A stretch of 58,589 nt of DNA from Bacteroidaceae bacterium (GTDB taxonomy: Bacteria > Bacteroidota > Bacteroidia > Bacteroidales > Bacteroidaceae): assembly GCA_017617575.1 (NCBI GenBank), contig JAFZVY010000046.1:1-58589 (forward strand). The letters run 5' to 3'. The position numbers and the translations under genes were made by a program. Below are positions 8,247 through 57,911 of the stretch, piece by piece. Position 1 is the stretch's first letter. The number at the start of each line of letters is the position of its first letter. The notes beneath the pieces were generated by a model. That model was given only the letters and a program-made list of their open reading frames with translations. It was not told where the DNA came from and made no database searches.

Positions 8247-8411
8247 ACGTCCGTTGTTTCTCCTAAGTAACTTCGTTCTTACTCCGTATTTTCACCATCA
8301 CATCTCCATTTCTTCTCCATCGAATGTCCATCAAAACGATGGAGATTCGATGGACATTCTCCGTAGAAATAGCGAAGTTACTTAGGAGAAACAACGGACG
8401 TGCGACGGAGA
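8247..8411. repeat. Large palindromic 11-bp-period repeat element, copy A
   Basis: Outer arms 8247-8275 and 8373-8401 are a perfect 29-bp inverted repeat. An inner hairpin centred near 8335 has 17-bp arms with one mismatch. The middle and right parts read as consecutive 11-mers such as TCTCCATTTCT, TCTCCATCGAA, TGTCCATCAAA, ACGATGGAGAT, TCGATGGACAT, TCTCCGTAGAA. The reverse complement of 33764-33895 aligns along most of its length. It lies between the stop of the 8437 gene and dgt. Nothing else is seen in 8145-8246. Confidence 0.85.
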
Positions 8412-8436
8412 TGCTTACCGGTATTTTCTGGGTAAC

Positions 8437-9078
8437 TTACGTCTCTGACTCCAACGACTCCAAAAAGTAATGGTACATGATGATGTAGAATATGCTTCCG
8501 AGCATTACTGAGAATGATAATAATGACGAATAGACGCCTGTAAACCATTCTGACAGGGGAAGCGTGTTGATGAGGAAGATGGTGAAATTCACAATGACGT
8601 GGCAGATGATGGCATAAATCAAGCTATGCGTCTTGCTGAAAACAAGATACACGCTGACAGATATCATCATAATCGGAATTATTAGGAACGATGTTTCCTG
8701 CATGACGGAGGTTATGAGTGCGCATATTACTATGGCAATATACTTGTTGCACATATCCATAAGCATCCTGAGGATGATTCCACACACGAGCGTTTCCACA
8801 ACTATCGGAAAAAGAAAGCAATAGTTGAAGAATTGCAATGGCGAAGTGTAGTCGAAATCCTCCACTTCCACCAAGTATTTCATGGGAGTATAGACGACAA
8901 GCGTCAGATACAAGATGATGGAGAAGAAAAAGATAGAATGTCCCAGATAGTACGTATAATACTTGCTATCCATAATCTGTCCTGACTTCCTCATACTCAC
9001 ACATATTGCAATCAAGCATAAAATTGAACCTACTATTGTCCAAATAACGTTATCTAAATCGTTTAGGTAAGATATCAT
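8437..9078 (-). CDS. Multi-spanning membrane protein, possibly CPBP-like
   Basis: A 213-residue, very hydrophobic protein with about six membrane segments. The arrangement VVETLVCGIILRM, then a long hydrophobic stretch, then IICHVIVNF recalls the CPBP (CAAX protease and bacteriocin-processing) family. That family normally has EExxxR, FxxxH and HxxxN motifs. Only the HxxxN-like HVIVN and a single Glu are seen, so it may be a catalytically inactive relative or unrelated. It is AT-richer than the flanking genes. An 8-bp tandem array precedes it (9182-9221) and the 11-bp-period element A follows it. Confidence 0.5.
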   Translation of the reverse strand: MISYLNDLDNVIWTIVGSILCLIAICVSMRKSGQIMDSKYYTYYLGHSIFFFSIILYLTLVVYTPMKYLVEVEDFDYTSPLQFFNYCFLFPIVVETLVCGIILRMLMDMCNKYIAIVICALITSVMQETSFLIIPIMMISVSVYLVFSKTHSLIYAIICHVIVNFTIFLINTLPLSEWFTGVYSSLLSFSVMLGSIFYIIMYHYFLESLESET

Positions 9079-9181
9079 AATGCATTTAATTTATTTATTG
9101 TCGTGTTGTTATCTAATATTTTCGCCTTTTTCTCAAAAAATTAAAATTTCAAAAAATCACCTCCTTCCTCAATAACGAAAT

Positions 9182-9221
9182 AACTTAAAAACTCAAGAAC
9201 CCACAAACTTATAAACTTAAT
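9182..9221. repeat. 8-bp tandem array overlapping the kinase stop codon
   Basis: Units AACTTAAA, AACTCAAG, AACCCACA, AACTTATA, AACTTAAT. It lies upstream of the membrane-protein gene and overlaps the stop (9217-9219) of the uridine-kinase-like gene. Confidence 0.7.
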
Positions 9222-10335
9222 ACTCATATCCGCTTCCACCAAGGAACTCCCTGAGTATTGAATATTTAGGAAGAAGTTCCACAGCTACAGGGTGAACCTC
9301 CTCGAGGAGCTTTAGCAGCCTTTGTGCCTCAAAATATGAAGGCTCTTCGTTTGTGACATTCTGAAGGAGAGGAATGGCTTCGTGGCGAAGCAATCCAAGC
9401 TCGTAAGGGAAAGACGTGTTCACGCTTGCATTTGCATACTTCTGGTAAGGTACAATCCATCTGCGCTCACCAAGGCGTACGCTCATCCATCGGTCGATGG
9501 TTGACTGGGCAGAAGTGCCACGATACTTGAAGTCACGTACCATTCGACGTATGAGACGGTTGTCCGTACTTAGGAAACTCTGTCCGTTTTGTCCCATCTT
9601 AAGGGCAGAGCCTGAGATGTAGATGCGGTAGAGTAGGTCGTTGCTTAGCGAGCCTGTAAGCTCTGGGTTAAGGCCGTGGATGCCCTCGATGATGAGGATG
9701 GAGTCCTCTTCCATCTTTGTCGGTTCACTTTGCCATTGGCGCGAAGCCGTAGCGAAGTCGTATCGTGGAAGGATGACCTCCTCGCCAGCCACGAGGCGTG
9801 TGAGGTGGTCTTCTATTAGCTTGAGGTCAAGAGCATAGAGTGACTCGAAGTCATATTCTCCGTTTTCGTCAAGTGGACAGTTATCGAGAGTGTCGTAGTA
9901 GTCGTCGAGCGACAGCATCTTTGGCTTCAATCCTTGTTGCTCAAGAGCATACGCCATCTTCTTGCAGAATGTCGTCTTGCCGCTTGACGAAGGACCTGCT
10001 ATGAGAACCACCTTTGGCATCTTCTGTGCAATATCCTCTGCCACGCTACTAATCATGGCCTCCTTGAGCTTCTCAAGAACGACGATAAGCTTGTCAATCT
10101 TGCCCTTGTCAATAATGTTGTTTACCTCGTCAAGGCTGATGTCTGCCGTCAGCATTCTGTCTGCTGGTACTCCGTTTATCTCAAGAACGCCAACAATCTT
10201 GTTGACTAACTCGGAAAGACTATTTTCATCGTAATTTTTTCTTAATTCAGATTTAAAACCGTCTGAAACGATTAATTTTTTATCTACGACTACAAACTTT
10301 TCTGAACTTTTATTATTTTTGCAACTGTTTTGCAT
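9217..10335 (-). CDS. Uridine/nucleoside kinase-like P-loop protein
   Basis: A 372-residue protein with a phosphoribulokinase/uridine-kinase domain. It has the P-loop GPSSSGKTT (114-122), LSLDDYYD (base or acceptor region), LDENGEYDFESLYALD, ILIIEGIHGLNPEL (Walker B-like) and a C terminus LREFLGGSGYEY that I recall from Bacteroidales nucleoside kinases. As I remember them, those are about 550 residues with an N-terminal TGS/threonyl-synthetase-like part. Here the first 110 residues are short and unlike that, so this is a reduced or paralogous form. A -7 box on the minus strand at 10369-10376 supports the start at 10335. It is divergent from the phosphate transporter. Confidence 0.8.
   Translation of the reverse strand: MQNSCKNNKSSEKFVVVDKKLIVSDGFKSELRKNYDENSLSELVNKIVGVLEINGVPADRMLTADISLDEVNNIIDKGKIDKLIVVLEKLKEAMISSVAEDIAQKMPKVVLIAGPSSSGKTTFCKKMAYALEQQGLKPKMLSLDDYYDTLDNCPLDENGEYDFESLYALDLKLIEDHLTRLVAGEEVILPRYDFATASRQWQSEPTKMEEDSILIIEGIHGLNPELTGSLSNDLLYRIYISGSALKMGQNGQSFLSTDNRLIRRMVRDFKYRGTSAQSTIDRWMSVRLGERRWIVPYQKYANASVNTSFPYELGLLRHEAIPLLQNVTNEEPSYFEAQRLLKLLEEVHPVAVELLPKYSILREFLGGSGYEY
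10314..10321 (+). promoter_or_regulatory. -7 box for the Na/Pi cotransporter gene
   Basis: TATTTTTG fits TAnnTTTG and lies inside the first codons of the divergent kinase gene. It implies a leader of about 100 nt before the ATG at 10429. No clear -33 element. Confidence 0.45.
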
Positions 10336-10368
10336 GACTTTCTTAATTCTGTATTATTAAAGTTAGCA

Positions 10369-10376
10369 CAAATATA
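10369..10376 (-). promoter_or_regulatory. -7 box for the kinase gene
   Basis: TATATTTG on the minus strand, about 33 bp upstream of the ATG at 10335. Together with the plus-strand box at 10314 it implies divergent transcripts whose 5' ends overlap. Confidence 0.5.
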
Positions 10377-10428
10377 TACTTTTTATTTCAAACCTTGTAG
10401 ATTATTTCAGGGAATTAACAAAATTTAT

Positions 10429-12171
10429 ATGAACGAATCTCACATTGACGCAATTCACATCATTACACTCATTGGTTCCGTGGCACTTCTCATGTACGGT
10501 ATGAAGGTAATGAGTGAGGGTCTCCAGAAGATGGCAGGTAGCAAACTCAGAAATGTGCTTGGCACCATGACTACCAATCGAGTGACTGGAGTCCTTACGG
10601 GTGCATTCATCACTACTGCCATTCAGTCATCAACAGCCACTACGGTTATGACGGTAAGTTTCGTTAGTTCGGGACTCCTTACCTTGGCACAAGCCATATC
10701 TGTAATCATGGGTGCCAATATCGGTACCACCGCAACAGCATGGATTATGGTGCTTGGCGGAAGTAATTTCAATATGCTTGGCGTTGTCTATGCGGCAATC
10801 ATTTTTGCAATCATTCTTATCTATACAAAGAAAAACACCAACCTCGGAGAATTTATTATAGGACTGGCATTCATGCTTCTCGGATTGACAACCTTGAAGA
10901 CTAATGCAACCGAAATGAACCTTGCTGGCAACGATGCCATCATGGGATTCTTCTCATCCACTTGTCATTGGGGCTACGGAAGCTACATACTCTTCCTTCT
11001 TATCGGAGGACTCATGACATGTGCCGTACAGAGCTCGGCAGCCATCATGGCAATCACTATGACTCTCTGCTCAACAGGTGTTATGCCTATAGACATGGGT
11101 ATCGCACTTGTCATGGGCGAAAACATAGGTACTACAATCACTTCAAACGTGGTGGCTCTCTCTGCTTCCACACAGGCACGAAGGGCAGCCATGGCTCACT
11201 TGGTGTTCAACCTCTTCGGAGTGATTTGGGTACTCTGCATCTTCAAGTATTTCGTAGGAGCTATATGTGACGTATGGGATGTTCCTTTCACTCCTGGTGA
11301 GGTGTCTGGTAAGATGAGTGCAACATCGCTCAACGCTATCCTCGCCACATTCCACACAGCATTCAACGTGTGCAACGTACTTATCCTTATCTGGTTCGTT
11401 AAGCCACTTGAGAAGATAGTATGTCTCATCGTAAGCCAGAGAAATGCCGACGAGGAAGAGGAAGGACGACTTCACTTCATTGGTGGTGGTGTCCTCTCCA
11501 CAGCTGAGCTTTCAATACTTGAGGCAAAGAAGGAGATTAACGTGTTTGTCAATCGTTGTGTCAAGATGTACGCCATGACACAGGAGTTGCTTCACGTAAA
11601 GAAAGGCGACGAGTTCAATAAACTCTACAGTCGAATAGAAAAATACGAGAGTATTACCGACAACCTTGAGGTGGAGATATGTGACTACCTCTCCAAGGTG
11701 AGTGAGGGACGTCTCTCCGTAGAGTCAAAGATAGAGATTCAGCACATGATGCGAGTGTGCGACGAACTTGAGAGCATTGGTGACAGCTGTTTCAACCTTG
11801 CTCGCACTATGAGCCGCAAGCGTAAGAACTCAAACGAGGACTTCACAGAGAAGCAGTATGAGCATATACTCAACATGATGCAACTAACGGAGGAGGCACT
11901 CAGCCAGATGGCTGTGGTAATCGAGCATGGTGACCATCGTTTCGTTGACCTCAATAAGAACTACAACACGGAGCATGAGATAAACAACTATCGCTCTCAG
12001 CTCAAGAACCAGAATATAATTGACATCAACAACAAGCTCTACGACTACCAGATTGGTGTCTTCTACATGGATATCATCTCTGAGTGTGAGAAACTTGGTG
12101 ATTACATCATTAACGTTATTGAGGCATCAGGTATAAAGGAAAAGAAAGCCAACGGCTTCAAGAACGCCTAA
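10429..12171 (+). CDS. Na+/phosphate cotransporter family protein with PhoU-like tail
   Basis: A 580-residue inner-membrane protein of the NptA/YjbB (Na/Pi cotransporter II) family. It carries the two inverted-repeat family signatures, QSSTATT near residue 62 and QSSAAIMA near residue 200, each within hydrophobic segments. A cytoplasmic C-terminal region (about 360-575) is helical like PhoU and probably ties transport to phosphate status. The ATG at 10429 (MNESHIDAIH) is preferred over an in-frame ATG at 10330, because the extra 33 residues (rich in Phe and Cys) do not look like family sequence and the frame there overlaps the predicted promoter. It is monocistronic: tRNA genes follow. Confidence 0.9.
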   Translation: MNESHIDAIHIITLIGSVALLMYGMKVMSEGLQKMAGSKLRNVLGTMTTNRVTGVLTGAFITTAIQSSTATTVMTVSFVSSGLLTLAQAISVIMGANIGTTATAWIMVLGGSNFNMLGVVYAAIIFAIILIYTKKNTNLGEFIIGLAFMLLGLTTLKTNATEMNLAGNDAIMGFFSSTCHWGYGSYILFLLIGGLMTCAVQSSAAIMAITMTLCSTGVMPIDMGIALVMGENIGTTITSNVVALSASTQARRAAMAHLVFNLFGVIWVLCIFKYFVGAICDVWDVPFTPGEVSGKMSATSLNAILATFHTAFNVCNVLILIWFVKPLEKIVCLIVSQRNADEEEEGRLHFIGGGVLSTAELSILEAKKEINVFVNRCVKMYAMTQELLHVKKGDEFNKLYSRIEKYESITDNLEVEICDYLSKVSEGRLSVESKIEIQHMMRVCDELESIGDSCFNLARTMSRKRKNSNEDFTEKQYEHILNMMQLTEEALSQMAVVIEHGDHRFVDLNKNYNTEHEINNYRSQLKNQNIIDINNKLYDYQIGVFYMDIISECEKLGDYIINVIEASGIKEKKANGFKNA

Positions 12172-12322
12172 GCACCCATGTAGGATTACATCCCGAGCCA
12201 TACTAAGCTCGTCTGCTTGTTTCGATCAGTCCTTGGCTCGCCCTCTTCTATCAAAAAGAGTTAAAAAAGTAAAAAAGTAAAATATTTCTCGTTAATTGTT
12301 TTAACGTTTAATAATAATTTAC

Positions 12323-12330
12323 TACCTTTG
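12323..12330 (+). promoter_or_regulatory. -7 box upstream of the tRNA genes
   Basis: TACCTTTG followed by CACCCGC, about 22 bp before the first tRNA. This is a typical strong stable-RNA -7 element. The -33 element is not clear. Confidence 0.6.
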
Positions 12331-12351
12331 CACCCGCTAAACAAGGAACGG

Positions 12352-12423
12352 GCTCCTATAGTTCAATGGATAGAACAAATCTCTCCTAAAGATTAGATTC
12401 GAGTTCGATTCTCGATGGGAGTA
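12352..12423 (+). tRNA. tRNA-Arg (CCT)
   Basis: A full cloverleaf can be folded. The acceptor GCTCCTA pairs with TGGGAGT (with G-T wobbles), the D stem is GTTC/GAAC, the anticodon stem AATCT/AGATT carries loop CTCCTAA (anticodon CCT), and the T arm is TCGAG-TTCGATT-CTCGA. The discriminator is A and CCA is not encoded. It decodes AGG. Confidence 0.9.
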
Positions 12424-12459
12424 CAAGACACGGGGTGTCTGAGCTCTTCAGAAGCATAC

Positions 12460-12532
12460 ACGGGGTTAGTTTAGTTGGTAGAATATCGGTCTCCAAAACC
12501 GAGGGTCGGGGGTTCGAGTCCCTCACCCCGTG
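12460..12532 (+). tRNA. tRNA-Trp (CCA)
   Basis: The acceptor ACGGGGT pairs with ACCCCGT, the anticodon stem TCGGT/ACCGA carries loop CTCCAAA (anticodon CCA), and the T arm is GGGGG-TTCGAGT-CCCTC. The discriminator is G, as expected for tRNA-Trp. It lies 36 bp after tRNA-Arg and probably shares its transcript. Confidence 0.93.
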
Positions 12533-12537
12533 CAACG

Positions 12538-12585
12538 AAAGAAAACGGCAACTTGCAAAGTCAAGTTACCGTTTTCTTTGTTTTT
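12538..12585 (+). terminator. Terminator of the tRNA operon
   Basis: 18-bp arms (12538-12555 and 12562-12579) with one mismatch, followed by a T-rich tail. Confidence 0.85.
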
Positions 12586-12668
12586 ACCATTTTACTTTTT
12601 CTATTCTACGTAAATCTGTGTTGAAAAGATGCGCAGGATTGATGTAATGTTTTTCTTATCCCACCTAA

Positions 12669-14813: not shown

Positions 14814-14924
14814 TTTAAGTGATGATTATTAAAATGTGTACTCTTGTTAATGATTTATTGATTAAAATTACGGCAAAGATACTAACTTTTTGCTATAAAT
14901 ATTTATCATTTCGTTTAAAAGTTG

Positions 14925-14932
14925 TAATTTTG
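14925..14932 (+). promoter_or_regulatory. -7 box of asd
   Basis: TAATTTTG (TAnnTTTG), giving a leader of about 50 nt before the ATG at 14989. No good -33 element is seen at the usual spacing. Confidence 0.55.
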
Positions 14933-14988
14933 CTCCCGATTTTGTGAATAATTTGTAATCAAGCTATTGATTTTTTAACTTAAATAAT

Positions 14989-21040: not shown

Positions 21041-21102
21041 GTTAGGTCATCATTATTCTTGCTATTCAATGGAGGGTTTTACATGACAAAATGTTATGGC
21101 TT

Positions 21103-21146
21103 AACCCTTCATCAATCCTTCGCTAACCCTTCGTTAATGGTTCGTA
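21103..21146. repeat. 11-bp tandem array, unit AATCCTTCGTT-like
   Basis: Four units, AACCCTTCATC, AATCCTTCGCT, AACCCTTCGTT, AATGGTTCGTA, lie between the first and second genes of the surface cluster. The same unit in reverse orientation forms the array at 57857. Confidence 0.75.
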
Positions 21147-21227
21147 ATTTTCGTCTAAAAGTTGAAATGACAAAATGATAGTGGGCTACCGAAGAATGAA
21201 TGGCAAAAAGTAAGGACGGACAACGAC

Positions 21228-25117: not shown

Positions 25118-25644
25118 GTTTCTCCAGAGAGTTATTAATGTGTTATCTTGTAGGATATGGGTGTTAATGTGTGGACATATATATGTAAATATCGGGAGAT
25201 ATGGGTGTAAATAAAATTATATGTGGGTGTGGCATGCATGGAGTGTGTAAATGAATACTAAATGTCATACGTACAGGTAGAATTTGGAAATATTACAAAT
25301 TTACAAATTTACAATTTAGTGTATGTAATATATAATAATGCAGCTAACTATATGATATATAATATAATAACTATATTTTAACTACTTAATACATGAAATT
25401 GTAAAATTGTAATTTGTAAACTGTAATAATTTCTGTGTTTGGTATAGTAATAAGAAATATTGATATGTTGTTATCGAAAATATGTCGTTATATTATGTAT
25501 TTGTGAATATAAGTGATGTTTTGACGACATCAAGAAATACCATTTATTAGCATGAAAAACGTGTTTCTTTGGCATAAAAAATGCTTAATGACAAGAGGCA
25601 TATTTGCATTATTTTGTTGATTTTGGGTATCATTATCTGTGTTT

Positions 25645-29275: not shown

Positions 29276-29303
29276 AATGAGGAATTAGGAATTAGGAATG
29301 GTT
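29276..29303. repeat. 7-bp tandem array upstream of the kinase gene
   Basis: Units AATGAGG, AATTAGG, AATTAGG, AATGGTT, starting 10 bp upstream of the GTG start. The in-frame stop codon that limits the kinase reading frame lies in this array. Confidence 0.65.
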
Positions 29304-29893: not shown

Positions 29894-30050
29894 TTAGGGA
29901 GTTAAAAGTTAGAAATGGAGTTAAGAGGAAGTTAATGTGGAGTTAAAAAGGAGTTAAAAAGACGAATGTCTATCGTTAAGATATTTTAGGATACGAATAT
30001 GCAGACAAACAAACGTCTTTTTAACTTCTTATATAACTCCATTTTAACTA
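29894..30050. repeat. 11-bp array pair, unit TGGAGTTAAAA-like, inverted
   Basis: Left side: TTAGGGAGTTA, AAAGTTAGAAA, TGGAGTTAAGA, GGAAGTTAATG, TGGAGTTAAAA, AGGAGTTAAAA, AGACGAATGTC (29894-29970). Right side, inverted (30013-30050), carries CGTCTTTTTAACTTC and AACTCCATTTTAAC. It fills the gap between the GDP-fucose synthase stop and the regulator start and may end the former transcript. Confidence 0.7.
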
Positions 30051-30054
30051 CAAG

Positions 30055-32519: not shown

Positions 32520-32599
32520 TGAGTTTATGAGTTTTTAAGTTCTTAAGTTTGTGAATTCTTAAGTTTTTAAGTTCTTAGGTTCTTAAGTTCTTAAGTTCC
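32520..32599. repeat. 8-bp tandem array, ten units
   Basis: Ten consecutive units of TAAGTTCT type (TGAGTTTA, TGAGTTTT, TAAGTTCT, TAAGTTTG, TGAATTCT, TAAGTTTT, TAAGTTCT, TAGGTTCT, TAAGTTCT, TAAGTTCC). It starts 8 bp upstream of the lipoprotein start codon and so forms its leader. Confidence 0.85.
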
Positions 32600-32614
32600 T
32601 AAATATTAATGCTC

Positions 32615-33569: not shown

Positions 33570-33763
33570 AATTTTGAACGATTACACCCATTATACGATT
33601 GTGTTGTCTAAAGGTCAAATGCAAATCGTCACTTTTTTCAGAAAAAAGTTAGTTAACCACTTCTTCTGCAAAATTACCACTTTATTTTGATTGCAACAAA
33701 GTTTTCTGGAGCATATCTCCTCGTTCTTCATCTGTTTTACCTCCGTCATTCCTCCATTATAAC
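33570..33763. other. Intergenic, no gene seen
   Basis: AT-rich region upstream of the sigma-factor gene. It should hold its promoter, but no TAnnTTTG box is clear. It continues into the 11-bp-period element B. Confidence 0.4.
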
Positions 33764-33895
33764 TTCGCTCTTTCTCCGTAGAATCTCCACCGAATGTCCA
33801 CCGAATGTCCACCGTTTTGGTGGACATTCGATGAAGATTCCATGGAGATGTGATGGTGAAAATATGGAGGAAGAACGAAGTTGCTACGGACATAA
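33764..33895. repeat. Large palindromic 11-bp-period repeat element, copy B
   Basis: From 33781 the sequence reads as 11-mers: GAATCTCCACC, GAATGTCCACC, GAATGTCCACC, GTTTTGGTGGA, CATTCGATGAA, GATTCCATGGA, GATGTGATGGT. Its reverse complement aligns with element A (8247-8411), sharing the TTTTCACCATCACATCTCCAT segment and the AACTTCGTTCTT flank. Confidence 0.85.
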
Positions 33896-33977
33896 ATCGG
33901 AGTAGGGAGGGAATATCGCACCAGAGGCGCGGACGAAGAAAAAACAGGTAAAAAAAAAACAGATAAAAATATTCTAG

Positions 33978-34331: not shown

Positions 34332-34430
34332 TTTATGAAGATGGTACTAATTTCTGTGGTGAAAAGGCAAAAAACGCTATGTTGATGAATTATGTGAAAT
34401 AATGCGTTTTGTGTTGCATTTTCCTTTGCT

Positions 34431-34496
34431 TTCTCTTAGCATCCTCTACAATTCTCTGAGAATTTGTAGAGGATGCTAAGGGAATACTAACGTAAT
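34431..34496. repeat. 11-bp-period palindrome after the TonB fragment
   Basis: Perfect 17-bp arms (34435-34451 and 34464-34480) extend inward to about 22 bp with one extra base. The sequence reads as 11-mers: TTCTCTTAGCA, TCCTCTACAAT, TCTCTGAGAAT, TTGTAGAGGAT, GCTAAGGGAAT, ACTAACGTAAT. It could act as a terminator. Confidence 0.8.
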
Positions 34497-39145: not shown

Positions 39146-39250
39146 TGTCGTTTAACGGCTGTTATACCCCACCAGCCACTGTTAAACCATTGTCAAATGG
39201 TTTTTAGCAGTGTTTTAGTGGTGTTTGAGCTCAAACACAGCTCAAGCGGA
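39146..39250. repeat. 11-bp-period palindromic region between purL and the FKBP gene
   Basis: It reads as 11-mers (CAGCCACTGTT, AAACCATTGTC, AAATGGTTTTT, AGCAGTGTTTT, AGTGGTGTTTG, AGCTCAAACAC, AGCTCAAGCGG) and folds around AAACCATT/AATGGTTT with further pairing of CACTG/CAGTG outside. Confidence 0.7.
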
Positions 39251-39949: not shown

Positions 39950-40024
39950 TGTTAGATGTTTTTATCTTAGAAGTTATGTGGTTTGTGAATTTAGAAAGTT
40001 AAGACAAATATGTTATTGTGCATA

Positions 40025-40056
40025 AACTTACAAACTCACAAACTTAAGAACTCACA
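40025..40056. repeat. 8-bp tandem array upstream of the FKBP gene
   Basis: Units AACTTACA, AACTCACA, AACTTAAG, AACTCACA, between glyS and the FKBP isomerase gene. Confidence 0.7.
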
Positions 40057-40070
40057 ACTACTTAAGGGAC

Positions 40071-41729: not shown

Positions 41730-41793
41730 AACTTAAAAACTCACGAACTTAAAAATTCACAAACTTAAATACTAATAAACTCAAAAACTAATT
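41730..41793. repeat. 8-bp tandem array 2 in the glyS leader
   Basis: Eight units of AACTTAAA type: AACTTAAA, AACTCACG, AACTTAAA, AATTCACA, AACTTAAA, TACTAATA, AACTCAAA, AACTAATT. Confidence 0.8.
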
Positions 41794-43039: not shown

Positions 43040-43068
43040 TATAACACAGACTAATGGTACTTTGTCGT

Positions 43069-43156
43069 AGTACGTCGCTTACGTACTCACAGTACTACCG
43101 TCACGTACTCTCAGTACGTTCGGCACGTACTGGCAGTACGTTCCCCAACGTACTGG
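43069..43156. repeat. AGTACGT array: four 22-bp (eight 11-bp) units
   Basis: Four exact-length 22-bp units (43069-43090, 43091-43112, 43113-43134, 43135-43156), each starting AGTAC and carrying (A)CGTACT at the other side, so each unit is itself an inverted repeat. It lies between the argE stop and the bidirectional terminator. Confidence 0.9.
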
Positions 43157-50272: not shown

Positions 50273-50296
50273 AAGTAAACGTGTCTGCGTTTACTT
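50273..50296. terminator. Hairpin across the Fur-family gene stop codon
   Basis: AAGTAAACG and CGTTTACTT arms with a 6-nt loop, overlapping the stop at 50291-50293 and lying 35 bp before purA. No strong T-run, so it may only attenuate. Confidence 0.45.
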
Positions 50297-50809: not shown

Positions 50810-50852
50810 ATTCCGTACTCATAAACCGCACAAATTTATTACTTTTCTGTCA

Positions 50853-51476
50853 CTATGACAAATAATCTGCAATTTTTTTGACCTTTTCAGCATTAACTTC
50901 ACTTTGCGATGCAAATATTTGTAGTGCTTTGAAAACTTGGGTGTCAAGTACAGTCGGCTTTGCCTCATCGCTGCCATCTGTCCTGAGATGTGAAAGAACA
51001 GATGATGCCTGATCAAGGAACTCGTTTGCACTTCTGTCCTGCAACTCGCCTCGTCTAAGCACATGGCACAAGGTGAGATAGCCACAACATTGTACCATCT
51101 CCTTGTCTGATGCCATCCACTCGAAAGCCTTTACAGATGCGTACTTGAGTCTGTTTACAAGGTTCATACAGAACATTTGTGCTATCTCGATGGTTTTGAT
51201 GTCTTCCACCCAGATATCGCATATCTCCTCATCGAACTTGTCCACAGGCATGAGTATGGTAGCGAGAATCTTGCATTCACGTACATTCTCTTTCCAGAGT
51301 GCTTGCGCCAGTTCATGGCTTGCCTCAAACTCCTTGGCAATATCGTGTATTCTCGGAAGTTCCACGCCAAAGTTAACCCTGTAATCTGCCGACTGCCTCA
51401 TGGCTGCCGACGCAATACCGTTCATATTAGCACGTAGTTCCTTCTTTACATCTAATATTTTTTCTTTTATATCCAT
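50853..51476 (-). CDS. AlkD-like DNA alkylation repair (HEAT-repeat) protein
   Basis: About 207 residues, starting at MDIKEKILDVKKEL (a Met six codons upstream is also possible). It is all-helical, with the family pattern LAQALWKENVRECKILATILMP, EICDIWVEDIKTIEIAQMFCMNLV and AFEWMASDKEMVQCCGYLTLCHVL. AlkD-type enzymes remove alkylated bases using HEAT-like repeats. The catalytic Asp and Trp pair is plausibly within WVEDIKT, but I cannot confirm activity. It is encoded upstream of the Fur and purA genes and downstream of the M49 peptidase, 148 bp away with a repeat in between. Confidence 0.75.
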   Translation of the reverse strand: MDIKEKILDVKKELRANMNGIASAAMRQSADYRVNFGVELPRIHDIAKEFEASHELAQALWKENVRECKILATILMPVDKFDEEICDIWVEDIKTIEIAQMFCMNLVNRLKYASVKAFEWMASDKEMVQCCGYLTLCHVLRRGELQDRSANEFLDQASSVLSHLRTDGSDEAKPTVLDTQVFKALQIFASQSEVNAEKVKKIADYLS

Positions 51477-51499
51477 ACACGTTTCATTTTGCACAATGT

Positions 51500-51605
51500 G
51501 CCAATTAAAAAAACAATAAAGAAACAGAACAAAAACAAGAAAAAACAGGTTTTCTTTTGTATTCTTTTGTTTTCACCATGTTTTTCTAACTGGCCGCTTT
51601 GCGGC
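51500..51605. repeat. A-rich repeat with GC hairpins, copy 1
   Basis: Contains a 29-nt A-rich string (51519-51547) that is identical to 58087-58115. It is preceded by GTGCCAATTA and followed by GTTTTTCTAACT and the hairpin GGCCGCTTTGCGGC. It lies between the M49 and AlkD-like genes. Confidence 0.75.
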
Positions 51606-51624
51606 AAAAAACACAATACAAATA

Positions 51625-53622
51625 TTACTTAACAGAATACTTGGAAGAATAGCGAAGCATCTGCTCTGCATATCCTTCGGTGTAAGTAACCTTTACATCG
51701 ATGATTTCGCCCTTGTCGTTACGTACTGCCTCATATACAGGGTTGATAAATCCCTTGTAAGGAGCAATGTTGAGCTTGGCGTATCTGTCGAGAACCTCCT
51801 TGTGAAGCTCTGGGTCGATCTTTACTCCGTATGTCTCTACGAGGTTCTTTGCACCCTCATAGTCACCAGTACTCTTTATGCGCTGGATTTCTGCAAGAAG
51901 TTCACCGAACAAGTCACGAAGACGAACATAGTCGTTAATCTTAACGTATGTCTTACCATCCTTCTTTACCATCTCAACTACATTGTCCTTCTTGCCGTGG
52001 TCAAGTGCCCAACGTGCAATGAGTGCCCTATTACGCATATGAGCCTCCTCAATGTTGTTGCCGATGTTGATGCGTACGAGCTGAGTCATAAGACCATTCA
52101 TCATCTGACTGTAGTATGAAGCCTTGTAAGCCTCTGCATTTGGAGTAAGTCCGAGTTCCACGAGCTTTGCGTCTGGGAGGTAGTAGAGGGCAAAGAGGTC
52201 TGCACGTGCTTCCTCAATTGTTGAACCGTATGCCTTGAGGCTATCTCCGTCCACTCCATCGAGAAGCTTACCACTTCCATGTCCGAGACACTCGTGAAGG
52301 TCTGTGTGGAGGTCATCGCACACGTCACCATATTTGTCAATTAACTCTCTCTCAACGGCAGAGTAAACGAATTCCTCAGACATACCATTGCCCTTGGCAG
52401 CTTTGTTGTAGGCATCTGTAAGGTTACCTATGGTAACGCTCTTTGAACCATGTTCCTTGCGAACCCAGTCAGAGTTAGGAAGGTTGATACCGATGGCTGT
52501 TGAAGGATAGAGGTCACCAGCGAGTATGGCAGCGTTGATTACCTTGGCAGTAATACCCTTTACCTTCTCCTTCTTGAATCTTGAATCTACAGGACTATGG
52601 TCCTCAAACCACTGTGCGTTGGCACTCAATGTCTCTGTACGCTTAGTAGCCTCAAGGTCCTTGAAGTTTACTATACTCTCCCAAGAGCACTTGAGACCGA
52701 GAGGGTCACCATAGCACTCGATGAATCCGTTGACGAAGTCGATGAGTGGTGCTGTGTTCTTAACCCAGAGGATGCTATACTCGTCAAATGTCTTGAGGTC
52801 ACCTTCTGTGTAGTATTCTATGAGCTTGTCGATAACCTGCTTCTGAAGCTCGTCCTCTGCGTATGGACGTGCAAGCTTGAGGTTCTCCACTATTTTAGCG
52901 ATGTACTTACCATACTTGCCGCCAATCTTCCACTTATCCTCAAATATCTTGCCATTCTTCTTGACAAGTGTGCTGTTCATACCATACATTACAGGGTGCA
53001 AAGGGTCGCCTTCAGCCTTCTGCTTACCGTAGAAGTCCTCAGCCTCCTCCTGTGTCACGCCTTGGTAGTAGTTGCAGGCAGAAGTCTTGATGAGGTCAAC
53101 ACCCTCGGCAAGGTTCACACGCTTCGTGAGGTAGTCCTCCTTGAAGATTGCCTTGCATATTTCATCAAGCTCTGCGCCCTTCACGTTTACCTTGCAATTC
53201 TTAACCTGCTCCCTGAACCATTTCTCAGAGAATCCTGGCACGAACTTCTCACATCCGTAGTGGTGGTGTATGCCATTAGAGAACCATACACGCTTGAGGT
53301 ATGTCTCCATAGCCTTGAAGTCATCAGACTTCTTGTTAGCCTTGTCAGAACAATAGATGCTTTCAAGTACGTTTCTTATGCCTAAGTTGTAGAGACCGTT
53401 CTGGTCAAACAAGATGTCACGTCCCCAGAGTGCAGCCTCCTGAAGGTGGTAGATGAAAGTCTTCTGCTTGAGTGTAAGCTCCTCAAATCCGTGTACCTTG
53501 TAGCGAAGCATCTGCAAATCTGCAAAACGCTCATCCGAATACTTGAAGTTGTCTGTCTGGGCAACGCCGTTGGCAACTCCCATACTGAGTAATGATGCCA
53601 TAATGTAATTTCTTATATTCAT
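51625..53622 (-). CDS. Dipeptidyl-peptidase III family (M49) metallopeptidase
   Basis: A 665-residue exopeptidase that removes dipeptides from peptide N termini. It has a signal peptide (MNIRNYIMASLLSMGVANGVAQ), so it acts outside the cytoplasm. The M49 zinc motif HECLGH is at 443-448 and the third ligand motif EEARAD at 470-475. Family members have HExxGH/HELLGH and EExRAE/D, so the site looks complete. The length fits bacterial DPP III. Upstream is an 8-bp tandem array (53628-53691). Confidence 0.92.
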   Translation of the reverse strand: MNIRNYIMASLLSMGVANGVAQTDNFKYSDERFADLQMLRYKVHGFEELTLKQKTFIYHLQEAALWGRDILFDQNGLYNLGIRNVLESIYCSDKANKKSDDFKAMETYLKRVWFSNGIHHHYGCEKFVPGFSEKWFREQVKNCKVNVKGAELDEICKAIFKEDYLTKRVNLAEGVDLIKTSACNYYQGVTQEEAEDFYGKQKAEGDPLHPVMYGMNSTLVKKNGKIFEDKWKIGGKYGKYIAKIVENLKLARPYAEDELQKQVIDKLIEYYTEGDLKTFDEYSILWVKNTAPLIDFVNGFIECYGDPLGLKCSWESIVNFKDLEATKRTETLSANAQWFEDHSPVDSRFKKEKVKGITAKVINAAILAGDLYPSTAIGINLPNSDWVRKEHGSKSVTIGNLTDAYNKAAKGNGMSEEFVYSAVERELIDKYGDVCDDLHTDLHECLGHGSGKLLDGVDGDSLKAYGSTIEEARADLFALYYLPDAKLVELGLTPNAEAYKASYYSQMMNGLMTQLVRINIGNNIEEAHMRNRALIARWALDHGKKDNVVEMVKKDGKTYVKINDYVRLRDLFGELLAEIQRIKSTGDYEGAKNLVETYGVKIDPELHKEVLDRYAKLNIAPYKGFINPVYEAVRNDKGEIIDVKVTYTEGYAEQMLRYSSKYSVK

Positions 53623-53627
53623 GTTTT

Positions 53628-53691
53628 TAAGTTTTTGAGTTCGTAATTTTTTGAGTTTGTAAGTTCTTGAGTTCTTAAGTTTTTAAGTTCT
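53628..53691. repeat. 8-bp tandem array upstream of the M49 gene
   Basis: Eight units: TAAGTTTT, TGAGTTCG, TAATTTTT, TGAGTTTG, TAAGTTCT, TGAGTTCT, TAAGTTTT, TAAGTTCT. Same unit and orientation as 32520-32599; it starts 6 bp from the start codon. Confidence 0.85.
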
Positions 53692-53708
53692 GTACGGTTG
53701 GGTTGGAG

Positions 53709-53818
53709 AAGCCTGAAAGGCTGGTAATATTACAGGCAGGGAGTGGAGCATAGCGGAACCCCTGTTTTGTCGGTATCACATCATCCGAAGAACCCAGAAT
53801 GGGTGACATAACAGAAGC
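53709..53818. repeat. REP-like intergenic element
   Basis: Contains small hairpins AGCCTGAAAGGCT (53710-53722) and ACCCAGAATGGGT plus the string GCAGGGAGTGGAGCATAGCGG. This resembles dispersed Bacteroidetes intergenic elements I have seen near REP-associated tyrosine transposases. No transposase gene is in the window. Recognition is from memory only. Confidence 0.45.
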
Positions 53819-53846
53819 GTTGTTCGTGTCTTTATTCTGTCACTCA

Positions 53847-54200
53847 TCAATCTCCTCCCTTCGTTGGGGTTGGGAGGGGACCTCTCCTATACTCTTCTGG
53901 CGATAAGCCTGTGAAGCGTTTGAAGGCAAGGAAGAACGACACGCGGTTTTTGAATCCCACAAGTATTCCTATTTCCTCCACCGTCATGTCTGCCTTCTTT
54001 TTGTTGGTAAGATGACGCTTCGCATCAGCCACACGATGTGACAGAACTATGTCGGAGTATGTACAGCCATACTCCTTCTTGATAATCCTCGACAACTTGT
54101 AGTTCTCAATACCCAAGTCCTCCGCAAGGCGTGTTGCGGAATAGTCTGGGTCACGATACTTGTGACTTTTTATGAGTAATGCGTCTATCTCCTTTTTCAT
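53847..54200 (-). CDS. Short AraC-type DNA-binding protein
   Basis: A 117-residue protein that is almost only an AraC-type double helix-turn-helix: first HTH about 20-45 (YSATRLAEDLGIENYKLSRIIK), second about 72-100 (MTVEEIGILVGFKNRVSFFLAFKRFTGLSPEEYRR). There is no ligand or dimerisation domain. The last dozen residues (GPLPTPTKGGD) are encoded by a C/T-tract palindromic repeat (53852-53880) that also lies just before the stop codon. A minus-strand TATATTTG (54216-54209) sits only 9 bp before the ATG, implying an almost leaderless mRNA. Confidence 0.8.
   Translation of the reverse strand: MKKEIDALLIKSHKYRDPDYSATRLAEDLGIENYKLSRIIKKEYGCTYSDIVLSHRVADAKRHLTNKKKADMTVEEIGILVGFKNRVSFFLAFKRFTGLSPEEYRRGPLPTPTKGGD
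53852..53880. repeat. C/T-tract palindrome within the end of the AraC-type gene
   Basis: CTCCTCCC, a short loop region and TGGGAGGGGA, related to the palindromes at 2096, 2241 and 28411. It supplies the final codons of the gene. Confidence 0.6.
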
Positions 54201-54208
54201 ATCTCGTG

Positions 54209-54216
54209 CAAATATA
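54209..54216 (-). promoter_or_regulatory. -7 box of the short AraC-type gene
   Basis: TATATTTG on the minus strand, 8 bp upstream of the ATG at 54200, so transcription should start within a few bases of the start codon. Confidence 0.5.
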
Positions 54217-54322
54217 TCCTTTTTTATCCACTTGTTAACTATGTTTACCCTAAAAAACGAGGTGAAATGCTTCTGCCGAATAACATGAATTATGAAAAAA
54301 GTAATGAAACATGTTAAAATGC

Positions 54323-54353
54323 TTTGATAAATGTGGCGGAATATCTACATTTG
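54323..54353 (+). promoter_or_regulatory. Consensus promoter of the aminotransferase gene
   Basis: TTTG (54323-54326), 19-bp spacer, TACATTTG (54346-54353), leader about 28 nt. Confidence 0.8.
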
Positions 54354-54387
54354 TGATGTGTAATAAGAAAAACAGGTTCGGAATTTT

Positions 54388-55563
54388 ATGAAACAAAGAG
54401 ACATCTCTTTCCTTGACCTCAAGTCTGTCACGGAATTGCATGGTGACGAGATAAGGAGTGCTATAAACAAAGTTGTGGATTCTGGCTGGTATCTTCATGG
54501 CGAATGTACCCGTCAGTTTGAGGAAGACTTTGCCAAATACATCGGTACTAAATACTGCATTGGTGTGGGTAATGGACTTGAAGCACTCTCACTCATCCTG
54601 CGTGCCTACAAGGAGTTAGGTAAGCTGAAGGATGGGGATGAGGTCATCGTTCCTGCCAACACGTTTATAGCCTCCGTACTTGCAATAACGGAGAATAATC
54701 TCATTCCTGTCTTTGCAGAGCCAAGGCTTGACACGCTTGTTATTGACGACTCTGCTGTTGAGGCTCTTATCACGGAACGTACTCGTGCCATAATGATTGT
54801 TCATCTTTATGGCAGATGCTCATATACTACAAGGATTGGTGAACTCTGCAACAAGCACAACCTCCTTCTGATAGAGGATAATGCGCAAGCACACGGTTGC
54901 CGTAGCAATTCTTCTTCCCATCGTTCTATATCCGAAAATGATTCTTCATTCTTCATTCCTCATTCTTCATTTCCCCGCACGGGTTCTCTCGGTCATGCTG
55001 CTGGTCATTCTTTCTATCCTGGAAAGAATCTTGGTGCAATGGGTGATGGTGGAGCTGTGACAACTGACGACCTGGAGCTTGCTGAGGCAATACGTTCTCT
55101 TGGCAATTATGGTTCTTCTGCCAAATATGTATATAAGTATAAAGGTGAGAACTCGCGTCTTGACGAGCTTCAAGCTGCCGTACTTGACGTGAAACTCCGC
55201 CATCTTGACGAGGACAATGCCCGTCGTCAGCAGATTGCAGCACATTATTATGATAATATAAGCAATCCTCACGTGACTCTTCCCGTTCGTCTGCCAGATG
55301 CAAACAATGTCTATCACATATTCCCTGTTCTTTGCGAAGAACGTGACAAGTTGCAGTCTTTCCTTAAGGAACGTGGCATCCAGACCTTGATTCATTATCC
55401 TGTTGCTCCTCATCAGCAGGAATGTTACAAGGAATACTCCCATCTTTCCTTACCTGTAACCGAAAGAATCCATCGTGAGGAGCTGAGTCTTCCTATGTCT
55501 CCTTCACTCACAATAGATGATGCCAAGTATGTTGCTGAATGTATAAATGAATTTATGTTATAA
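54388..55563 (+). CDS. DegT/DnrJ/EryC1-family sugar aminotransferase with in-frame repeat insertion
   Basis: A 391-residue PLP enzyme that transaminates keto-deoxysugar nucleotides for surface glycans. GNGLEALSLIL (PLP phosphate region), PANTFIASVLAI, Asp164 and Gln167 in IEDNAQAHG, and the Schiff-base lysine Lys213 in HSFYPGKNLGAMGDGGAV are all seen. Family members have about 25 residues between the Gln and Lys; here there are 46. The extra 20 or so (about 172-197, rich in Ser, Phe and His) are encoded partly by a 7-bp array (54941-54975). Resemblance is to the FdtB/DesV-like branch; the exact sugar is unknown. It has its own consensus promoter. Confidence 0.88.
   Translation: MKQRDISFLDLKSVTELHGDEIRSAINKVVDSGWYLHGECTRQFEEDFAKYIGTKYCIGVGNGLEALSLILRAYKELGKLKDGDEVIVPANTFIASVLAITENNLIPVFAEPRLDTLVIDDSAVEALITERTRAIMIVHLYGRCSYTTRIGELCNKHNLLLIEDNAQAHGCRSNSSSHRSISENDSSFFIPHSSFPRTGSLGHAAGHSFYPGKNLGAMGDGGAVTTDDLELAEAIRSLGNYGSSAKYVYKYKGENSRLDELQAAVLDVKLRHLDEDNARRQQIAAHYYDNISNPHVTLPVRLPDANNVYHIFPVLCEERDKLQSFLKERGIQTLIHYPVAPHQQECYKEYSHLSLPVTERIHREELSLPMSPSLTIDDAKYVAECINEFML
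54941..54975. repeat. 7-bp array inside the aminotransferase coding region
   Basis: ATTCTTC, ATTCTTC, ATTCCTC, ATTCTTC, ATTTCCC in frame between the DNAQAHG and PGKNLGA motifs. Confidence 0.8.
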
Positions 55564-55685
55564 TGTTTTTTGTGAAGAGTTGGAGAGAGCGAATGAAAAA
55601 AGCAGGATGAAAGTTGCCTGTTATCTCTCTCTTCTGTTTGTACCAAAAGTAATATCGCCCCTCATGTTTTGTCCTAAACTTCATA
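55564..55685. other. Intergenic segment with a module shared with 57751
   Basis: 55587-55628 contains GAATGAAA...GGATGAAAGTTGCCTGTTAT, very similar to 57753-57790 (GAATGAAA...GAATGAAAGTCGCCTATTAT). Both copies follow a gene end and precede an 11-bp array. No gene seen. Confidence 0.5.
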
Positions 55686-55762
55686 GTCAGTACTTAGTCT
55701 ATAGTTTGTCAGTACTTAGTCAGTACTTTGACTATACTTCAACCGTACCTGTTTTGTGACTA
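55686..55762. repeat. 11-bp tandem array, unit GTCAGTACTTA
   Basis: Units GTCAGTACTTA, GTCTATAGTTT, GTCAGTACTTA, GTCAGTACTTT, GACTATACTTC, AACCGTACCTG, TTTTGTGACTA (55686-55762). It lies between the aminotransferase and fimbrillin genes. Confidence 0.8.
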
Positions 55763-55855
55763 TAATGGAAAACTATTGCCCTTTTTGTCTTTTGATGTTT
55801 CCTCTTCTTTCTGATGCCAGATTTTTTCGACTTGTGAGTTTTATTTGTGCAAATA

Positions 55856-55887
55856 TTTGGTGATAAGGGAAATCTTTCATACCTTTG
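55856..55887 (+). promoter_or_regulatory. Consensus promoter of the fimbrillin-family gene
   Basis: TTTG (55856-55859), 20-bp spacer, TACCTTTG (55880-55887). The leader is about 65 nt. Confidence 0.8.
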
Positions 55888-55957
55888 TGTTATCTTTTTG
55901 TTACAGAGCTATTTTGCGAATGGAAAGAAACAACTAACTTAAAAAAATCAAAACGAA

Positions 55958-57652
55958 ATGAAGAATATTGCATTATCTATTATTTCCTTGAGTTTGCTCG
56001 CAGCTTGTTCGTCAGAACTGGCGGAGATGGAAAACGACATTGTGACTGGTGACGAGGTACAGAAAGTTACCATTCAGAGCCATCCTTTTGTGTTCGATGA
56101 CGACACGCGTACATTGCTTACGGCATCGGATAAGTCTATCAATTTTTCTTGGGCTGACTATGATGCCATGGGTGTGTTCCCTGTCGCACCATACTCCAAC
56201 AGTCAGGCAAAGCGTACACTCAGCGTACCTGCTGGTGCTGATGCCCATTATGCTACGTTCGACGGAGCAGGATGGGAACTGAGCCAGAACAATACGTATG
56301 CAGCATACGTGCCTTACAACGGTTCGCTCCCTTCATCAACTTTGTACGATGAGGTGCCTGTTGACCTTACTGGTCAGGACGGAACGCTTGAGACAATCGG
56401 CAAGAAGTACGACTATATGTATGCGCCATCCTCAAGAGGAACATTTAAGAACCTCGGTGGTAAGAATACCGAGATTGTGTTCGATTTCCAGCATGCCGTA
56501 TCTATTATCCAGTTGAAGCTCACCATGCCTATTGCTGCAGAGTGGAAGAGCGTCACGCTTGCAAGTACAGACGGAAGCAAGGTGTGGACAACATCAGCAG
56601 CCATGAACGTGGCTACGGGTGAAGTCATACCAAAGGAAACATCATCAGAGGTTACGCTCTCGCTCGATAATGTAAGCACAACCGAATCAGACAAGACTCT
56701 CACTCTCTATCTTGCAGTGCTCCCTACAACGACTGGTGACCTCACGCTTACAGCCAAGACATCAGTCAACAGGTCATACACAGCGACTCTAACAGCAAAG
56801 ACTCTCGTTGCTGGCAAGGCTTACCGCTATACAAAAAGCGAGTTTGTTACGCCTCCAACAACGGGTACTGAGAATGGCTATACATGGGTTGACCTCAATT
56901 TGCCATCTGGTTTGAAATGGGCAACAATGAATGTTGGCGCAACAAGTGTAGCAGATTATGGCAAGTACTACGCATGGGGTGAGACGAAAGGATATGGCGA
57001 GGAAGACCAAAGCAATGCAAGAAATTATGTCTCTGCGGGCAGTTACACTAAGACCTCTTATTCTTGGAATACATACAAGTGGTCAAATGATGATGAAGGA
57101 AACTCATTTAGCAAATACACAGCTTCCTCAAACACTACTCTTGACGCAGAGGATGATGCTGCCACACAGAACTGGGGCGGAGCATGGCGTATGCCAACCC
57201 ATGCAGAACAAGAGGAACTCGTAAACAACTGTTACTGGGTGTGGACATTAAATTACAACGGTTCTGGCGTAGAAGGTTGTATCGTTTATGCGGCAAAATA
57301 TCCTTCTGACTGTGGATTGTGTGACATGAGTGAAAATTCTTCGAAAAACTACTCGCTCTCTGATACCCATATTTTCATTCCTGCTGCTGGCTATCGTTTT
57401 TTGGGTGGATCCGATTCTAATTTCGATTCTGATCCTGTTGTTGATCCAGATTTTAATGTTGATCCTATAGGCAAAAACCGTAGCAGTTATGGTAAAATCT
57501 GGTCGTCTTCACTCACTGGCGATGATGGCAAATCCGCATGGTCATTGGACTTCTGTACGATGCGGATTGGTTGGATAGAGCAAGTAGTACTCAATAGCGA
57601 CAATTTAGATGGCCGTTACAAAGGCTTCTCTGTCCGTGCTGTCTGCAAGTAA
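55958..57652 (+). CDS. Fimbrillin-family lipoprotein with FISUMP-like C-terminal domain
   Basis: A 564-residue protein with lipobox LAAC (Cys17). Residues about 30-300 match the fimbrillin (Mfa-like) fold: KVTIQSHPFVFDDDTRT, WADYDAMGVFPV, YAAYVPYNG, YDYMYAPSS, VFDFQHAVSIIQLKLTM. Residues about 312-564 look like the Fibrobacter-type major paralogous (FISUMP) domain: YTWVDLNLPSGLKWATMNVGA, GKYYAWGETKGYGEED, WGGAWRMPTHAEQEELVNNC, FSVRAVCK. In Bacteroidetes such proteins sit on the outer surface as pilus or adhesin subunits. The fusion suggests a tip or accessory adhesin. No other fimbrial gene is adjacent. Confidence 0.82.
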   Translation: MKNIALSIISLSLLAACSSELAEMENDIVTGDEVQKVTIQSHPFVFDDDTRTLLTASDKSINFSWADYDAMGVFPVAPYSNSQAKRTLSVPAGADAHYATFDGAGWELSQNNTYAAYVPYNGSLPSSTLYDEVPVDLTGQDGTLETIGKKYDYMYAPSSRGTFKNLGGKNTEIVFDFQHAVSIIQLKLTMPIAAEWKSVTLASTDGSKVWTTSAAMNVATGEVIPKETSSEVTLSLDNVSTTESDKTLTLYLAVLPTTTGDLTLTAKTSVNRSYTATLTAKTLVAGKAYRYTKSEFVTPPTTGTENGYTWVDLNLPSGLKWATMNVGATSVADYGKYYAWGETKGYGEEDQSNARNYVSAGSYTKTSYSWNTYKWSNDDEGNSFSKYTASSNTTLDAEDDAATQNWGGAWRMPTHAEQEELVNNCYWVWTLNYNGSGVEGCIVYAAKYPSDCGLCDMSENSSKNYSLSDTHIFIPAAGYRFLGGSDSNFDSDPVVDPDFNVDPIGKNRSSYGKIWSSSLTGDDGKSAWSLDFCTMRIGWIEQVVLNSDNLDGRYKGFSVRAVCK

Positions 57653-57669
57653 AGGTTCTTCTGAGTCCC

Positions 57670-57756
57670 TCCTTTTTCCCTTAGTTCCTCTTATGTTTCT
57701 CTTAGGATTTGTGGAGAAACATAAGAGAAACGTAAGGGAAGAGTGGGGGAGAGAAT
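57670..57756. repeat. 11-bp-period palindrome after the fimbrillin gene
   Basis: Long arms (57676-57701 and 57714-57740) pair with few mismatches. The sequence reads as 11-mers CCCTTAGTTCC, TCTTATGTTTC, TCTTAGGATTT, GTGGAGAAACA, TAAGAGAAACG, TAAGGGAAGAG, TGGGGGAGAGA. Probable terminator. It shares words with the palindrome at 34431. Confidence 0.8.
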
Positions 57757-57856
57757 GAAAATTCAGAATGAAAGTCGCCTATTATATATAATGTGTCATT
57801 GTGTTATTCCGTTCCGAAGGCCTCATTTCTTTCTGTCACCCGCAAATTCACGGAAG

Positions 57857-57911
57857 AATTACGAAGGGTTAACGAACCATTAACGAAGGATTGACGAGGG
57901 TAGGCGAACTG
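57857..57911. repeat. 11-bp tandem array, unit ATTAACGAAGG
   Basis: Units AATTACGAAGG, GTTAACGAACC, ATTAACGAAGG, ATTGACGAGGG, TAGGCGAACTG. Inverted relative of the array at 21103-21146. Confidence 0.8.

Follow-up and report, generated by a model that had tools for sequence, protein, structure and literature searches.

An intergenic 11-base step shared by dispersed array families in a Bacteroidaceae genome

Repeat families are usually defined by their sequence. Here we describe intergenic arrays that differ in sequence while keeping a step of 11 or 22 bp, so that one can ask directly which of the two is selected or copied, spacing or sequence. The arrays were found in contig JAFZVY010000046.1 of a Bacteroidaceae bacterium (GenBank assembly GCA_017617575.1), a stretch of 58,589 nucleotides analyzed at its full length and called the window below. 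An initial annotation had marked ten intergenic loci in it (8247, 21103, 29894, 33764, 34431, 39146, 43069, 55686, 57670 and 57857) as rows of consecutive 11-mers and had asked whether selection on roughly one helical turn, an A-form RNA turn, or a copying mechanism with an 11-nt step lay behind them. The shared 11-base period is real. We tentatively favor the explanation that the arrays are dispersed rows of putative DNA–protein sites, built like the PhoB and ArcA repeats, and we place our confidence in it a little short of even.

Autocorrelation of the 36 intergenic regions of the window (8,266 bp) against 200 dinucleotide shuffles bears out the period, with a pooled z of 6.9 at lag 11, 4.2 at lag 22 and 3.1 at lag 33. 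Other lags are equally strong (z = 7.3 at lag 8 and z = 5.3 at lag 7). When each region is scored by its best 33-column window, 10 of 36 reach p ≤ 0.015 at lag 11, where ∼0.5 would be expected. The ten loci occupy nine regions, since 57670 and 57857 lie in one, and eight of these nine reach that level; the exception, 43069, holds a 22-bp array, with p = 0.214 at lag 11 and p = 0.005 at lag 22. Two regions that hold no named locus complete the ten. The excess at lags 11 and 22 over shuffled controls, which the initial annotation had proposed as its test, extends to a 638-kb sample of the same genome (G000, 86% complete), which holds 319 intergenic regions whose gene ends are approximate, being set by a length-plus-codon gene caller. 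Here z is 26.8 at lag 7, 18.3 at lag 8, 14.3 at lag 11 and 13.4 at lag 22. Arrays are present at lag 11 in 31 of the 319 regions (0.25 in shuffles) and at lag 22 in 28 (0.05 in shuffles), and at lags 7, 8, 10 and 12 in 55, 24, 15 and 0, respectively. The second batch of this sample was chosen mostly on matches to one array family (family F, below) and is biased; the less biased part, made up of the window and the first batch (146 regions, with one of its 20 stretches placed to include an F match), still shows 11 lag-11 arrays and 10 lag-22 arrays.

The number of distinct families sets 11 and 22 apart from their neighbors. Clustering the arrays of the own-genome sample by unit gave 3, 4, 5, 3 and 12 families at periods 7, 8, 9, 10 and 11, none at 12, one at 13, two at 21, 14 at 22 and four at 23. 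The count at 22 includes at least three overcounts (family E twice, the ATATGGGTGT family twice, and one F array) and is closer to 11. Periods 7 and 8 thus combine many arrays with few families. Some arrays of 11-bp units are confined to one sampled locus. A stricter measure is the ladder, a 4-mer repeated at an exact step in four or more copies with unlike spacers. Ladders occur in 24 of the 319 regions at step 7, 12 at step 8, 20 at step 11 and 6 at step 22, with 0.0 at each in five shuffles; the neighboring steps 10, 12 and 21 yield 3, 1 and 1.

To find relatives of the ten loci, each was compared by BLAST with the sampled DNA of its own genome and of a sister species (G036, also sampled), and a matched place was called intergenic if less than half of it was covered by a called gene. 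Nine of the ten fall into six dispersed families, A to F, which overturns the earlier view that most loci have a unit of their own. The accompanying idea of a fixed period with a changing unit stands in part: distinct families gather at 11 and 22 and not at 10, 12 or 21, but the unit differs from family to family, not from locus to locus. Loci 8247 and 33764 match each other (family A), as do 21103 and 57857 (family B); 34431 and 57670 are linked through common matches at L093, L061 and L225 (family D). Locus 29894 (family C) has 17 further places in the sampled own DNA, 43069 (family E) has 4 and 55686 (family F) has 15. Every place matched by the nine family loci is intergenic by the test above, and short single-unit patterns of family C fall inside called genes in 4 of 42 cases. 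The features of the window are as follows.

8230..8416, no strand assigned: family A; GGA cores step outward every 11 bp from a palindromic centre near 8334, with 9 units to the left and 7 to the right; outer arms match once shifted by two units
21086..21149, minus strand: family B array, ACGAAGGATTA unit
25155..25230, plus strand: 22-bp-period array, ATATGGGTGTAA; second copy at L086:4331
29907..30053, no strand assigned: family C; two arms of GGAGTTAAAAA-type 11-mers, inverted about a variable middle
33733..33919, no strand assigned: family A; centre near 33815, 7 units to the left and 9 to the right
34425..34490, plus strand: family D; inverted repeat with an 11-bp-period arm (TCTCTTAG..)
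39146..39230, plus strand: the 39146 locus; weak 11-bp periodicity, no dispersed relative in the sampled DNA of either species
43058..43150, no strand assigned: family E; 22-bp palindromic units (AGTACGT..ACGTACT)
55684..55748, plus strand: family F; row of GTCAGTACTTA-type units
57663..57745, plus strand: family D inverted repeat, related to 34431; neighbors the next array, a D-beside-B pairing that recurs in G036 (L288)
57850..57907, plus strand: family B array, related to 21103 in opposite orientation

Family A provides the strongest result for exact 11-bp spacing. Its elements have a palindromic centre from which GGA cores run outward at exact 11-bp steps, with ∼5 positions of the unit conserved and ∼6 variable. 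In the first ten loci, whose extents were defined by the phase itself, 153 of 178 GGA triplets lie in one phase; among the 169 units beyond the first, GGA is exactly placed in 133, shifted by +2 in 2 and absent from 34. A pattern containing two cores 11 bp apart led to 11 further own-genome places, ten of which were kept after a phase test (L314 was a chance match without a ladder); they include an ortholog (L299) and a near-copy (L307) of first-set loci. At 16–99 bp from the centre of these ten, 120 of 140 GGA triplets share the phase of the innermost core, and the others lie at +3 (16) or +2 (4), with none at the remaining eight phases. The search pattern already fixes one 11-bp interval between cores, so the fairer count starts beyond the third unit, where 89 of 109 are in phase. 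The twenty loci together, which include orthologs and copies of each other, hold an exact register for up to 13 units per arm. The ladders weaken with distance from the centre. Core identity in the outer units is 0.78, whereas the spacers agree at 0.38, against 0.395 for random units of other loci. In the clear ortholog pair L299/L309, each arm is retained at the same length (119 bp), and the right arm differs at 15 of 64 spacer positions versus 4 of 55 core positions. Selection on roughly one helical turn, as the initial annotation had suggested, finds its best support in this exact ladder with unlike outer spacers.

Placement relative to genes adds a second line of evidence from family F. 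We placed 41 of the 56 F arrays of G000 and G036, dropping 12 at contig edges and 3 in gaps of more than 1,500 bp and leaving out six loci from other organisms. In tandem regions, AAGTACTGAC lies on the coding strand in 25 of 26 cases, the sole reversal being the window copy at 55684..55748 (two-sided binomial ∼8e-7, by hand). Fifteen placed arrays are in divergent regions and 0 of 41 in convergent ones, although 71 of 480 regions are convergent (chance ∼0.0014, by hand). This promoter-side rule holds in the G000/G036 pair and is not general: with other organisms included, the totals are 26 sense, 3 reversed, 15 divergent and 2 convergent. For family A, placement was possible at 14 of 20 loci, 8 of them in tandem regions, 5 in divergent ones and 1 in a convergent one. 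The remark that nine of the ten loci follow the 3′ end of a gene turns out to describe the background, since at least one gene 3′ end precedes 276 of 319 intergenic regions and 35 of the 42 with an 11- or 22-bp array.

This organization recalls the operators of OmpR/PhoB-family regulators. In the published accounts drawn on here, ArcA sites consist of direct repeats spaced by 11 bp, and additional repeats lie at a distance of 11 or 22 bp (PMC3798270), and the PHO box consists of two 11-nt units with seven conserved and four less conserved positions (PMC4415409). The arrays likewise are direct repeats spaced 11 (or 22) bp centre to centre and seem to pair a conserved core with a spacer of lower conservation; those of family F lie on the promoter side in two species. 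Set against a core of ∼7 and a spacer of ∼4, the F unit varies at positions 4, 5, 8 and 11 of 11, the other seven having been forced by the search pattern, and the A unit divides into ∼5 and 6. Unlike these operators, the arrays comprise many unrelated families, form longer ladders, are inverted in family A, are dispersed as elements and have no known regulator. Direct repeats of 11 bp are also bound side by side in the parC centromere of plasmid R1, whose ParR protein needs at least two of them according to the source cited (PMC9426499); parC is a single plasmid locus with parMR, whereas the copies here are dispersed over the chromosome.

The arrays consist of short intergenic cores (∼4–7 bp) repeated at intervals of precisely 11 or 22 bp, in several unrelated families dispersed through the genomes of two close relatives. 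We conjecture that each row would be a binding-site array for a DNA-binding protein, with neighboring copies of that protein lined up along one helical face. The manner of binding would be that of OmpR/PhoB-type regulators on 11- and 22-bp direct repeats. Same-face spacing would keep the step, and one structural class of protein may stand behind several families.

An RNA-level explanation would instead have the arrays transcribed and folded into long hairpins of A-form geometry, with 11 bp to the turn; an RNA-binding protein or RNase would read them, and they would act as terminators or stabilizers at 3′ ends. The initial annotation held that most loci fold as palindromes. Among the loci listed, this is so for 8247 (RNA-fold z −8.0), 33764 (−6.6), 43069 (−7.1) and 21103 (−2.6), but not for 55686 (−0.6) or for 29894 (0.2, with part of its second arm outside the folded context). 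Ten family A loci fold at z −4.5 to −18.3, in 7 of 9 loci the outer arms by themselves still give z ≤ −4.6, and family E and several 22-bp loci also fold strongly. Against these, in only 2 of 10 loci do the outer A arms match one another better than all control arms; folding is weak in F stretches (z 0.3 to −3.4 among the rows listed), and F avoids convergent gene ends in the two species; 3′ ends are not enriched upstream of arrays; and 11- and 22-bp arrays in tandem regions have no C>G bias on the transcript strand (17 versus 18 of 35 in G000; 11 versus 13, with 3 ties, of 27 in G036). A-form RNA is thus not supported as a general cause, and we regard an RNA origin of the step as highly improbable overall; for families A, C and E an RNA-structure reading may apply. 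Two specific candidates were rejected: arrays of Rho-utilization (rut) sites for Rho-dependent termination, as the C-rich/G-poor strand is not tied to the transcript, and known structured RNAs, as the only Rfam matches at gathering score in the window are two tRNAs.

Comparison with G036, another step that the initial annotation had called for, shows that arrays turn over. The E array at 43069 is kept in the ortholog with identical ends, 44 bp shorter and with a 3-bp gap just outside the array. At 21103 (family B), the orthologous gap measures only 38 bp and holds no array, and at 29894 (family C) a 7-bp-period palindrome takes the place of the element. The L101 site carries family A in G000 and F and B-like units in G036, and a B+D pair at the L056 site exists only in G036. 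The F array at L095 is kept in both species with an 11-bp difference, and the orthologs at L093:17673 differ by ∼42 bp in three gaps. Family A occupies the same gap of both species clearly at L299/L309 and, judged by one flank and with reorganized arrays, at L087/L311. The elements at L307 (G000) and L313 (G036) are near-identical over a ∼230-bp array and ∼100 bp on one side, one 11-bp unit apart, and the two sites have no other flank in common among the matches listed. Orthologous C elements (L103:2872-3161 and L222) keep both arms nearly unchanged around a different middle. Copy number changes in whole units, and elements move.

Such movement might be that of miniature inverted-repeat transposable element (MITE)-like sequences, in which the arrays would be passengers or ends of non-autonomous elements served by an unseen transposase, the step reflecting transposase sites or trapped minisatellites. 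The dispersed, intergenic, multi-copy families fit, as do the L307/L313 elements at otherwise unlike sites (among the matches listed), the presence or absence of arrays at orthologous sites (21103 and L056) and the C pair with kept arms and a different middle. BrickBuilt and 464/PgRS of Porphyromonas gingivalis, another Bacteroidales member, are similarly intergenic and multi-copy, being described as MITE-like small elements with tandem 23- or 41-nt direct repeats (PMC4596501). BrickBuilt, however, is in that description one 23-nt unit family with IS5-like terminal repeats; here many units share a step, and the ortholog alignments, which held no clean empty site, revealed neither target-site duplications nor terminal inverted repeats. 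Moreover, the A ladders are strongest at the centre, unlike transposon ends, and the many families would need many transposases. Y1_Tnp (PF01797), present in 5 of 14 control genomes, has 0 matches in the 86%-complete G000 (other transposases were not searched), and repetitive extragenic palindromic (REP) elements moved by a REP-associated tyrosine transposase (RAYT) were rejected on that ground. Mobility alone also does not explain one shared step. A mobile origin is accordingly possible but, to our minds, doubtful.

A mutational origin of the step would invoke local duplication (slippage, template switching or primer-length re-annealing) that in this lineage favors 11- and 22-nt copies regardless of sequence, with the families then spread by recombination. 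It would account for arrays at single sampled loci and for the ortholog differences of 44 bp (43069), 11 bp (L095 and L307/L313) and ∼42 bp in three gaps (L093:17673). Adjacent units in families F, B, C and D are 0.54–0.60 alike versus 0.34–0.48 for units of other loci, so a simple slippage minisatellite, which copies the whole unit with its spacer, fits these families in part. It does not fit the outer A spacers, which between neighbors are no more alike than random, and fits only slightly the CGGA ladders taken up below. Ortholog alignments yielded 32 clean gaps, a number too small for a test of mutation; one is exactly 11 bp and none is 22 bp. Step-11 4-mer ladders occur in 0 of 320 chunks of coding DNA, and arrays at 7 and 8 bp are equally common. 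On this evidence we judge a purely mutational step to be unlikely.

The families themselves are narrowly distributed. Family F dimers number 38 in G000, 132 in G036, 5 in G042 and 1 in each of two genomes, with 0 in 40 of 45 genomes of the genus; the family A core occurs 44 times in G000, 20 in G036 and 0–4 in others, against 0–2 for a reversed control. Both families are therefore local to a small species group. Step-11 or step-22 ladders with other cores were found in small samples of G040, G022 (which also has three ladders at step 21) and G044, and none in small samples of G042, G003 and G051 or of two outgroup families. Pooled lag 22 is raised in G040 (z 5.5) and G042 (z 4.2); G042 carries 11-bp family B arrays, and the outgroup G019 one 22-bp array. 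As a separate observation, the highest array density in G051 (L271-L275) among the periods listed is at 23 bp (4.05 per 10 kb intergenic), with none at 11 or 22. A broader proposal, which we consider unlikely, is that one sequence-independent process in this lineage builds intergenic ladders from any core, either a self-assembling class of DNA-binding proteins that repeatedly gain new target cores or duplication machinery with an 11-nt step; the step would then be inherited while the sequence turns over between species.

Several other repeats accompany the 11-bp arrays. Arrays of 7 bp are the commonest class (55 of 319 regions; e.g., window 29276-29299 and L048:1022-1105), and the AATTNNN rows among them lie a median of 24 bp from the end of the upstream gene in tandem regions. 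Arrays of 8 bp (AACTYANR) occupy window positions 9168-9222, 32520-32602, 40024-40057, 41730-41789 and 53623-53694; AACTYANR is on the coding strand in 24 of 31 singly oriented tandem cases, a median of 21.5 bp before the start codon, and the array at 41730 was not seen, by eye, at the orthologous site in four relatives. Both classes resemble the TAACTGA heptamer arrays of Beggiatoaceae, Cyanobacteria and Bacteroidetes, which, like the arrays described here, are dispersed intergenic direct repeats of fixed short period; their unit, in the account drawn on, is a single one of 7 bp, not 11 (PMC4679880). A ∼70-bp dispersed element with a CGGTCAGTGAGACCG core at window 6164-6239 recurs at 20 other places in the own-genome sample, of which 19 are intergenic, and at ∼30 in G036 among the matches listed. 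A ∼170-bp sequence at L049:10968-11138 has more than 20 matches in G036, several at or near contig starts. Near the contig end, window 57955-58260 contains a ∼45-bp inverted repeat with arms ∼190 bp apart (by eye). Finally, window 55958-57652 encodes a 564-residue protein without a Pfam match that belongs to a large family (23 matches in G000 and 44 in G004 at E ≤ 0.001).

A number of results weigh against rows of protein-binding sites. No binding protein was identified, in an analysis that made no search by protein family, and the many array families would require either many proteins or one versatile class. The ladders, with 4–13 units per arm, are mostly longer than the published operators with which we compared them, as far as the accounts drawn on describe these. 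The five placed F arrays in other organisms comprise 1 sense, 2 reversed and 2 convergent, and the genes downstream of F look varied (19 arrays, by eye). The promoter-like motif TAnnTTTG is only somewhat commoner downstream of F arrays, at 2.73/kb versus 1.59 upstream and 2.09 in all tandem regions (27 in the 9.9 kb separating arrays from start codons, 13 of them accompanied by a TTG box; 13 in 8.2 kb on the other side, 4 so accompanied). Families B and C are balanced in orientation. Pooled lag-11 autocorrelation is not raised in six other members of the genus (z −0.8 to 1.3), and three-copy ladders exceed shuffles at step 9 (19 versus 3.2) and step 10 (18 versus 4.6) too. Within family A, a coarser measure on CGGA ladders finds adjacent units 0.50 alike versus 0.42 for random ones. 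In the L299/L309 pair, the left arm has 4 of 55 core differences, clustered in one unit, and 1 of 64 spacer differences. When A arms are compared with one another at whole-unit offsets, 16 to 18 of 34 score above the 95% level of shuffled sequence (0.79) with some other arm; as about half of the arms thus have spacers in common, A loci are partly copies of one another. The failure of the F rule in other organisms, together with the likeness of adjacent units, weakens the case for protein-binding rows and strengthens that for a mutational step.

We found no description of an 11-bp intergenic array family in Bacteroidales among the titles and abstract openings listed in literature searches, largely outside subscription papers. 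Should a protein indeed stand behind the ladders, they would represent a layer of gene control or chromosome organization in uncultured rumen-type Bacteroidales.

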